This document shows, one piece after another, positions 17,329-20,273 of a stretch of 64,000 nucleotides of DNA. A program made the translations under genes and the position numbers. Source of the DNA: Alphaproteobacteria bacterium (lineage in GTDB: Bacteria; Pseudomonadota; Alphaproteobacteria; Micropepsales; Micropepsaceae); NCBI GenBank assembly GCA_013389115.1, contig JACADY010000061.1, forward strand, positions 62,001-126,000. The letters run 5' to 3'. Every line of letters starts with the position of its first letter. Position 1 is the stretch's first letter. The notes beneath the pieces are model-generated. The model worked only from the letters and a program-made list of their open reading frames with translations, was not told the origin of the DNA and did not search any database.

Positions 17329-17880
17329 TCACATCCGCGCTGGGAATTTGGCGCCAAAGGGCTCACCCTCAAGGCGGGCGGCGTTCGCAACGAAGCTCAC
17401 CGTGTGATAGGCCCCGCACAGCGCCAGGACCTCCAATTGCTGTTCGCGGGTGAAGTTCCTTGCGAAAGCCTCGCGCGTCGCGCCCGTCAACGTCGCCGTC
17501 TCGCTGAGCTCATCCACGAGCCTGAGCAGCAAGGCTTCGCTCTCGCTCCAGCATGGCGCCGATGGCATTTGCGTCCGCGTCGCCTCCAACTGGTTCTCGG
17601 TGAACCCCGCCGCGCGCGCGAAGGCCGCAACGTGAACGCCCCATTCATATTCGCAGTCGAGATTCGCAGTCACCCGCAGGATCACGATCTCGCGCTGACG
17701 CAAGGTGAGCGGACTTTCGTTGTCGAGCAGGTTCGGCACACCCTTCAGCAGAAATCGCTTGCTGTTGGCGAAGGTGCGAAACAGCGTCAGGAGGTAGCCG
17801 CCGCGCTGGGGATAGTTGGCGAGGATCGCCTGAATGTCTTCGGCGTAAGGGGGATTGAGGGGCGCAATCAGGTTGTGCAT
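17329..17880 (-). CDS. Carboxymuconolactone decarboxylase family protein
   Basis: A 183-aa member of the CMD/AhpD-like all-helical family. The signature is LTLRQREIVILRVTANLDCEYEWGVHV, where a Cys-x6-His arrangement replaces the CxxC seen in true AhpD. Members act as decarboxylases, peroxidase partners or uncharacterised oxidoreductases. It is transcribed divergently from an HxlR regulator 72 bp away, with two inverted-repeat operators between them, so it is very probably that regulator's target. Confidence 0.85.
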   Translation of the reverse strand: MHNLIAPLNPPYAEDIQAILANYPQRGGYLLTLFRTFANSKRFLLKGVPNLLDNESPLTLRQREIVILRVTANLDCEYEWGVHVAAFARAAGFTENQLEATRTQMPSAPCWSESEALLLRLVDELSETATLTGATREAFARNFTREQQLEVLALCGAYHTVSFVANAARLEGEPFGAKFPARM

Positions 17881-17894
17881 GACACCGTCTCCTT

Positions 17895-17911
17895 GCTACA
17901 TCATTTGTAGC
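17895..17911. promoter_or_regulatory. Operator 1 between CMD gene and HxlR regulator
   Basis: Perfect inverted repeat GCTACA-TCATT-TGTAGC, 15 bp from the CMD start codon. The same arms recur in operator 2, with centres 27 bp apart. It is the probable binding site of the divergent HxlR protein. Confidence 0.75.
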
Positions 17912-17921
17912 AGACGCTATT

Positions 17922-17938
17922 GCTACATATTTTGTAGC
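17922..17938. promoter_or_regulatory. Operator 2 between CMD gene and HxlR regulator
   Basis: Perfect inverted repeat GCTACA-TATTT-TGTAGC, identical arms to operator 1 and 15 bp from the HxlR start codon. The arrangement suggests autoregulation together with control of the CMD gene. Confidence 0.75.
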
Positions 17939-17952
17939 GCAAGAGACATGAG

Positions 17953-18288
17953 ATGACCGCGCAGAAAAAAAAGTCCGTGCGAGGGTCGCGCAGCGGAAGG
18001 CCGATCATGGTGCTGCTCGACGCGCTGGGTCAGCGATGGGCGCTGCGCGTGTTGTGGGAGTTGCGCGCGAAACGCCTCAGCTTCCGGTCTTTGCGCACGG
18101 CATGCGGCGAAATCTCACCGACCGTTCTCAATGTCCGGTTGCGGCACTTGCGCGATCTCGGGCTCGTCGCGCTTCATGAGGAAGGCTACGGCCTCACCCG
18201 GGAAGGCGAGGCCTTGGGCCAGCATTTCATGGCACTCGATGCCTGGGCGAATGATTGGGCGAAGGCCCGAGGCAGCGCCGGGGATTAG
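17953..18288 (+). CDS. HxlR-family winged-helix transcriptional regulator
   Basis: A 111-aa DNA-binding protein. The wHTH core is visible as LLDALGQRWALRVLWEL, then FRSLRTACGEISPTVLNVRLRHL (recognition helix) and DLGLVALHEEGYGLTREGEAL (wing). Many HxlR proteins sense aldehydes, quinones or oxidants, often through a cysteine, and one cysteine (TACGEIS) precedes the recognition helix. It is divergent from the CMD gene with twin operators between them. Its stop overlaps the convergent parE end by 4 bp. Confidence 0.87.
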   Translation: MTAQKKKSVRGSRSGRPIMVLLDALGQRWALRVLWELRAKRLSFRSLRTACGEISPTVLNVRLRHLRDLGLVALHEEGYGLTREGEALGQHFMALDAWANDWAKARGSAGD

Positions 18289-20273
18289 ATATCGAGGTCC
18301 TTCACGAATTGCGCGTTTTCCTGAATGAACTGAAAGCGCAACTCGGCCTTCTTGCCCATCAGGCGCTCAACGAGGCTGTCGGTGTCTTCCCTGTCGTCCT
18401 CCGGGATGACGACCCGCAGAAGCGTGCGCACGCCCGGCTTCATGGTCGTCTCCTTCAACTGCGCGGGCAGCATTTCGCCCAGGCCCTTGAAGCGGTTGAT
18501 CTCGACCTTGGCGTTCGGCTTGAACTCCTTTTTCAGAAGCTCCTCCTTGTGCGCATCATCACGCGCATAGACGACCTTGCCGCCATGGCTCAGGCGATAA
18601 AGCGGCGGCAGCGCAAGGTAAAGGTGCCCGCCCGCGATCAGTCCAGGCATCTCGCGATAGAAAAACGTCATCAGAAGCGAGGCGATGTGCGCGCCATCGA
18701 CATCGGCATCCGTCATGATGACGACCTTGTCGTAGCGCAGATCCTCCTCACGGTATTTCGCGCCCGTACCGCAGCCGAGCGCCTGCATCAGGTCGGACAA
18801 TTCCTGATTCTGGCCGAGCTTGCCGGCAGCCGCGCTTGCGACGTTGAGGATCTTGCCGCGCAGGGGCAGTACGGCCTGAAGATTGCGGTCGCGCGCCTGC
18901 TTGGCCGAACCCCCGGCGCTGTCGCCCTCAACGAGGAACAGTTCGGTTCCGTCGGCGGTCTGATTGGCGCAATCGGCGAGCTTGCCCGGCAGGCGCAATT
19001 TGCGCACGGCGCCCTTGCGGCTGACCTCTTTTTCCTCGCGGCGGCGCAGGCGCTCATCGGCGCGCTGGATGACAAAATCGAGGAGCTTGGCGCCTTCCTG
19101 TGGGTTCTGCGCCAGCCAATGGTCGAAATGGTCGCGCACCGCGTTCTCAACCAGACGCTGCGCCTCGGGGCTCGACAGCTTTTCCTTGGTCTGACCTTGA
19201 AATTCCGGCTCGCGGATGAAGATCGACAGCATGGCGCAGGCCTGGTCCATCACGTCATCAGGCGTGATCTGCGCCGTCTTGCGGTTGCCCGTCAGCTCAC
19301 CGAACGCGCGCAGGGACTTGGTCAGCGCGGTGCGCAGGCCCTGGTCATGCGTGCCGCCCTGGGGCGTTGGAATCGTGTTGCAGTAGGAATGCGAGAAGCC
19401 GTCGCGCGCCGGGGCCCAGGCCAGCGCCCATTCGACCGCGCCCTTGCCTTCCTTGTTCTCAACGCGGCCGGCGAAGGCCCGCGCCGTCACCGTCGTCTCC
19501 TTTTCGAGCACCGCGGCCAAATAGTCAGAGAGACCGCCAGGGAAGTGCAGCGTCGCTTCGGCCGGCGTTTCATCGCCCGCATGGATGAGCGCGGGGTCGC
19601 AGGACCAACGGATCTCGACGCCACGGAACAGATAGGCCTTGGAGCGCGCCATCTTGTAGAGGCGCTTGGGCTCGAAATGGGCGTCCTTGCCGAATATCTG
19701 CGCGTCGGGCTTGAAGCGCACGATCGTGCCGCGGCGATTCTGGATGGCGCCCAGGTCCTTCAATTTGCCTTGCGGAACGCCACGCTCGAAGCGCATCGCA
19801 TAGAGCCTGCGATCGCGCGCGACCTCGACCTCGAGCCACTCAGAAAGCGCATTCACGACCGAGGCGCCGACGCCGTGGAGGCCACCGCTCGTCTCATAGG
19901 CGTCACCGCCGAATTTTCCGCCCGCATGAAGCACGGTGAAAATGACTTCCAGGGCCGTCTTGGGCTTGAGCTTTGGATGCGGATCGATGGGAATGCCGCG
20001 GCCATTGTCGCGGACGGTGAGTATCCCTTCCGCGCTCAACTCCAACTCGATGAAAGAGGCATGGCCCGCGACCGCCTCATCCATCGCATTGTCGAGGGTT
20101 TCGGCCGCAAGGTGATGCAGTGCGCGGGCGTCGGTGCCGCCGATATACATGCCGGGGCGGCGCCGCACGGGCTCCAGGCCCTCCAGCACCTCGATGTCCT
20201 TGGCGGTATAGGTCTTGCCGCCCGCTTCCTCGTCACGCGCAAAAAGGTCAGGGGCGCGGTTCGCACGAGCCAT
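18285..20273 (-). CDS. parE: DNA topoisomerase IV subunit B
   Basis: ATPase subunit of topoisomerase IV, which decatenates daughter chromosomes. It is 662 aa. The GHKL ATPase motifs are ETLDNAMDEAV and VRDNGRGIPID, with the glycine loop GLHGVGASVVNAL. The TOPRIM domain has LVEGDSAGGSA and MTDADVDGAHI. The length without a gyrase-specific insertion and the C-terminal GEMLPAQLKETTM favour ParE over GyrB. The start at 20273 follows GGAGAGACGGACGA. Its ParC partner is not in the window. Confidence 0.93.
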   Translation of the reverse strand: MARANRAPDLFARDEEAGGKTYTAKDIEVLEGLEPVRRRPGMYIGGTDARALHHLAAETLDNAMDEAVAGHASFIELELSAEGILTVRDNGRGIPIDPHPKLKPKTALEVIFTVLHAGGKFGGDAYETSGGLHGVGASVVNALSEWLEVEVARDRRLYAMRFERGVPQGKLKDLGAIQNRRGTIVRFKPDAQIFGKDAHFEPKRLYKMARSKAYLFRGVEIRWSCDPALIHAGDETPAEATLHFPGGLSDYLAAVLEKETTVTARAFAGRVENKEGKGAVEWALAWAPARDGFSHSYCNTIPTPQGGTHDQGLRTALTKSLRAFGELTGNRKTAQITPDDVMDQACAMLSIFIREPEFQGQTKEKLSSPEAQRLVENAVRDHFDHWLAQNPQEGAKLLDFVIQRADERLRRREEKEVSRKGAVRKLRLPGKLADCANQTADGTELFLVEGDSAGGSAKQARDRNLQAVLPLRGKILNVASAAAGKLGQNQELSDLMQALGCGTGAKYREEDLRYDKVVIMTDADVDGAHIASLLMTFFYREMPGLIAGGHLYLALPPLYRLSHGGKVVYARDDAHKEELLKKEFKPNAKVEINRFKGLGEMLPAQLKETTMKPGVRTLLRVVIPEDDREDTDSLVERLMGKKAELRFQFIQENAQFVKDLDI

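Follow-up and report, generated by a model that had tools for sequence, protein, structure and literature searches.

Paired putative operators of a cysteine-less HxlR subfamily between divergent hxlR and CMD genes

Within the window (the whole stretch of DNA that was analysed, 64,000 nucleotides), two divergent genes flank a short intergenic region that holds two palindromes. On the minus strand, positions 17329-17880 encode a carboxymuconolactone decarboxylase/AhpD-like protein (CMD) of 183 amino acids, with the motif CEYEWGVH and without CxxC, whose start codon is the ATG at 17880. On the plus strand, an hxlR-family regulator gene (17953-18288, ATG at 17953) encodes 111 amino acids, with a single Cys at residue 51, an Arg (Arg16) at the usual sensor-Cys position, and the recognition helix S55-P56-T57-V58-L59-N60-V61-R62. 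Pfam scores of 45.0 bits for CMD against PF02627 (cut-off 23) and 42.4 bits for HxlR against PF01638 (cut-off 20.8) place both proteins in the families to which an earlier note on this DNA had assigned them when it described a divergent CMD/HxlR module. The 3' end of hxlR overlaps by 4 bases (18285-18288) a convergent minus-strand gene of 662 amino acids (18285-20273), which we take to be parE by name. Because of this overlap, the unit consists of CMD and hxlR only, in line with the compact regulator-effector pair proposed earlier.

The CMD-proximal palindrome, putative operator 1 (17895-17911, GCTACATCATTTGTAGC), carries the arms GCTACA and TGTAGC around TCATT, and the hxlR-proximal one, putative operator 2 (17922-17938, GCTACATATTTTGTAGC), has the same arms around TATTT; both have conserved counterparts in related loci. 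The two 17-bp sites with identical arms were thus exactly where the earlier note had placed them, and their centres, at 17903 and 17930, are indeed 27 bp apart. The distance of 15 bp that it had given from each site to the nearer start codon was corrected to 14 bases, on the CMD and the hxlR side alike. The gap between the operators (17912-17921) measures 10 bp here and varies in length among relatives, where the centres lie between 17 and 50 bp apart. A ribosome-binding-like AAGGAG adjoins operator 1 in the CMD leader (17881-17894, minus strand), with the same placement in relatives; the hxlR leader (17939-17952, plus strand, GCAAGAGACATGAG) lies immediately past operator 2 and is aligned with that of relatives. 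A scan for sigma-70-like promoters passed none at the locus, and hexamer profiles averaged over the flanks of the sites gave an ambiguous picture, so that no -10 or -35 element was placed.

A scan of the window's own genome (G000; 83 contigs, 2.79 Mb, 87.85% complete) for GCTACA-N5-TGTAGC, as had been proposed in the note, gave no exact copy besides these two among its 2,793,230 bases; a single other copy, with one mismatch, lies within a coding frame (L003). When up to two mismatches were allowed, the window held just these two sites, against a shuffle mean of 0.80, and the motif count in the window alone is weak statistics. It is because the sites are conserved across related loci that they stand far beyond chance.

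This conservation was assessed in several samples. An HxlR orthologue search of 100 relatives gave matches at an E value of 1e-3 or better in 36, and 12 besides the window's own had E below 1e-20; a profile (A1) run against 385 genomes of the class matched 33 at 1e-20. The motif was defined on a discovery set of 43 loci (39 + 4), in which twin sites were visible by eye. Its core is GCTA-N9-TAGC, and a site was counted upstream of hxlR when at least 7 of the 8 core bases were present. Two or more sites were found in 38 of the 43 discovery loci, with a shuffled mean of 0.09, in a count made with a misplaced anchor at L062, a locus that itself has two sites. Among held-out loci, two sites were present in 36 of 38 from the order draws (the orders of G099 and G243; one of these draws comprises 30 loci among the matches listed) and in 22 of 26 from the phylum draw, where one match (G547) falls outside the set. 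In the pooled sample, 97 of 107 loci have two sites, six have one and four have none (shuffled mean 0.26 loci), a count to be read with the loci not being independent, many in the held-out order draw belonging to one genus. Both sites are perfect (8/8) in 61 of the 107, a number never reached in 100 shuffles (mean 0.00). Outside the subfamily, none of 19 control HxlR genes, made up of 17 weaker matches from the search of 100 relatives and two paralogues from the window's own genome, has two sites. The pooled half-site consensus reads G C T A, then C more often than T, then A, G, T and C in decreasing order, with an A/T centre.

The sites are associated with the regulator rather than with CMD. 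Of the 107 loci, 87 have a divergent CMD gene, 85 of these with two sites, and the 20 loci that lack such a gene comprise 12 with two sites, four with one and four with none. Nine of the 12 divergent non-CMD proteins listed were scanned and correspond to six EamA transporters, one SGL, one DUF6196 and one YCII protein; the EamA transporter genes face a subfamily hxlR and its operators in L051, L063, L067, L068, L137 and L142. As twin sites persist beside divergent genes other than CMD, they follow the HxlR subfamily. At the locus beside the YCII-domain gene (L141), each of the twin sites has one altered outer arm, with GAAGC replacing the TAGC type.

Four contigs (L034-L037) were gathered independently, by CMD sequence; L035, L036, L037 and L151 were inspected separately and stand outside the 107. 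Both hxlR and GCTA-N9-TAGC twin sites are present in L035 and L036, and in the latter (L036:1473-1514) one operator is the exact reverse complement of its twin. The Kordiimonas contig (L034) has a CMD gene without a site, in a genome without a subfamily HxlR. In L037 (1940-1984; Hyphomonas sp. CY54-11-8) and L151 (1428-1471), CMD has twin GCTACG-type sites and no adjoining HxlR gene; by eye, the divergent frame at these two CMD genes resembles a SulP transporter.

The arrangement in L037 is what one would expect if a different cellular regulator bound the sites and HxlR were a bystander. We find this very improbable, given that the sites accompany the HxlR subfamily even where the divergent gene is another one, and that the same Hyphomonas genome encodes a subfamily HxlR away from CMD, where a further pair of twin sites, spaced 27 bp, accompanies it. 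L037 is therefore an exception to simple linkage, yet fits action in trans. Nor do we see more than a slight chance that the palindromes act as RNA, in the form of a leader hairpin or terminator. One terminator-like stem does exist (17906-17927, plus strand, with a T-rich tail), but it is built from the inner half-sites of both operators and would arise with any two such palindromes; its loop would shift with the spacing, which varies among relatives, and the arm bases covary with the recognition helix (see below). The stem is probably a by-product of the twin palindromes.

Geometry bears on two further readings. Among the 85 CMD loci with two sites, the centres are 17-50 bp apart in several helical phases, with spacings of 34 bp (21 loci), 22 bp (12) and 27 bp (7) among them. 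Were the pair to act cooperatively, with two dimers touching on the DNA, it would be expected to hold a single phase, so the variable spacing counts against such a fixed arrangement, as do the six single-site loci among the 107. Twin occurrence is nonetheless the rule (97 of 107) and the 34-bp and 22-bp spacings recur, although this recurrence may reflect lineage; overall, we regard the cooperative unit as unlikely. The proposal in the earlier note that the sites serve both promoters through dimer pairs accordingly divides: one HxlR operator per divergent promoter stands, whereas a fixed dimer-pair geometry does not. Across the same 85 loci, where start calls are noisy, the distance from site to start has a median of 14.5 bp on the CMD side and 15 bp on the hxlR side; in relatives, an SD-like sequence stands directly behind each site. 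This position, about 15 bp from the starts, suits steric repression, while a site for an activator would be expected further upstream. Activation of CMD instead of repression, in the manner of Bacillus HxlR on hxlAB, does have a precedent, in that B. subtilis HxlR is reported as an activator (PMC7835342, PMC4776306); we consider it an outside chance here, if a real one.

The paired sites very probably belong to the regulator encoded alongside, and we hold with considerable confidence that they are two separate operators of the adjacent HxlR-family protein, which would probably repress both divergent promoters. Each likely lies over a transcription-start region, one per promoter, and repression is the likely sign. 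The data show the sites, how they are conserved and that they are linked to the regulator; binding by HxlR, repression over activation, and control by a ligand are what we infer. An HxlR dimer, whose binding to palindromic DNA is suggested by the conserved palindromes in 97 of 107 loci, would read each 17-bp palindrome by docking one recognition helix on either GCTAC half-site, with operator 2 over the hxlR start region and operator 1 over that of CMD. The bound regulator would block both divergent promoters, giving autorepression as well as repression of CMD, until a ligand, and not thiol chemistry at the usual sensor Cys, loosened the dimer from the DNA; release would then turn CMD on and reset the regulator. 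We take this switch, most likely non-thiol, ligand-controlled and autorepressing, to be real and of a familiar kind.

The non-thiol character of the putative signal is suggested by the absence of the residues used by characterized relatives. In HxlR/DUF24 proteins studied so far, oxidants, quinones or formaldehyde are sensed by an N-terminal Cys or a Cys-Lys pair; YodB and QsrR sense via the N-terminal Cys (PMC8063818, PMC6798810). We matched the sensor position by hand to the B. subtilis HxlR peptide FNCEKELTLAVIGGK, as given in PMC7835342, anchoring the alignment on the following G. In this alignment, Arg16 of the window's protein occupies the position of HxlR Cys11 and Ile18 that of Lys13, in place of the crosslinking Cys11 and Lys13 of formaldehyde sensing. 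Across the subfamily, the sensor-Cys column holds Cys in none of 107 members, Arg in 86 and Lys in nine, and at column 18 all 107 have Ile or Val; neither the window's HxlR nor any of the 107 thus has the N-terminal sensor Cys of a thiol-switch DUF24 regulator. Elsewhere in the protein, Cys is most frequent at column 51, where 77 of 107 members have it. On the enzyme side, none of the 87 divergent CMD proteins, among them that of the window, has the AhpD-type thiol peroxidase motif CxxCxxxH, and 86 of these 87 keep the Y, E, W and H of the YEWGVH-type motif. The oxidants, aldehydes and quinones that had been suggested as inducers consequently find no support, and the lack of the sensor Cys disfavours them as direct thiol signals; such compounds could bind HxlR non-covalently.

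The window's HxlR belongs to the same winged-helix family as YodB, QsrR, HypR (YybR) and HxlR of the MarR-like HxlR/DUF24 group, and a profile of 13 orthologues matched the structures of YodB (5hs7, 3.2e-10), HxlR (7bze), YybR (4a5n) and QsrR (4hqm). It would share with these proteins the character of a small dimeric regulator controlling enzymes that act on reactive compounds, but its subfamily differs in having no N-terminal sensor Cys and putative operator arms of the GCTAC type. CMD resembles the CMD/AhpD proteins of PF02627 (Atu0492, 2gmy; Silicibacter, 2pfx; mlr4105, 3c1l; AhpD) by its Pfam match and by a predicted structure of low confidence (mean pLDDT 61.6) for which AhpD-like folds ranked first in fold comparison; a look-up of the PDB by CMD sequence gave no match, or weak ones only. 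Unlike AhpD, it has the YEWGVH-type motif in place of CxxCxxxH. A further likeness is the NmlR/AdhR regulon of B. subtilis, in which a CMD protein (YraC) is under a stress regulator (PMC4776306); NmlR is however a regulator distinct from HxlR, and adhA and yraA also belong to its regulon, whereas the unit here is limited to CMD and hxlR.

Literature searches, which covered mostly open-licence papers, returned none that describes an operator of an HxlR-CMD pair. We regard the conserved operator pair of this Cys-less HxlR subfamily as genuine and ordinary in kind, and it is apparently undescribed in the literature searched. What was a lone observation becomes a defined putative regulon across about 100 genomes, with a regulator subfamily, an operator motif and its spacing tolerance, and a usual target. 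With a two-gene reporter, it becomes possible to test what induces the unit and what YEWxxH CMD enzymes do, and the set of loci is useful for deriving rules of HxlR-DNA recognition.

One such rule may involve residue 57 of the recognition helix. In the 43 discovery loci, column 57 tracked arm bases 5-6 best among the variable columns. Thresholds for testing this residue were fixed before the held-out draws, which later reached them: CA occurs with Thr57 in 89 of 110 half-sites (81%) against 5 of 30 (17%) with Ser57 in the order draws, and in 41 of 64 (64%) against 1 of 24 (4%) in the phylum draw. Over all loci, the values are 187 of 254 for Thr57 and 9 of 114 for Ser57. In the two held-out sets, the column came 11th and 5th among 87 columns and, since it led in neither, lineage effects are large. 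Phylogeny-controlled contrasts gave about nine pairs, of which four to five agreed, none was opposite in most runs and four to five were ties; on well supported branches only, two to three pairs were available. The link between residue 57 and arm bases 5-6 is thus suggestive. T57 as the unique specificity column was dropped, having come first in the discovery set and not in the held-out sets.

A more inclusive reading would be that a widespread Cys-less subfamily of proteobacterial HxlR proteins regulates hxlR itself together with a divergent CMD (or EamA) gene via two independent GCTA-N9-TAGC operators, with residue 57 setting arm bases 5-6 (CA for Thr, CG or CT for Ser) and with non-thiol sensing of a small molecule by a mechanism used in no studied HxlR protein. 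We offer this full combination tentatively, its chances as a whole being somewhat below even. In the profile alignment, T57 lies opposite the Lys of YodB ISQKML, which we would equate, assuming an offset of two residues, with Lys48 of the DNA-recognition helix of YodB.
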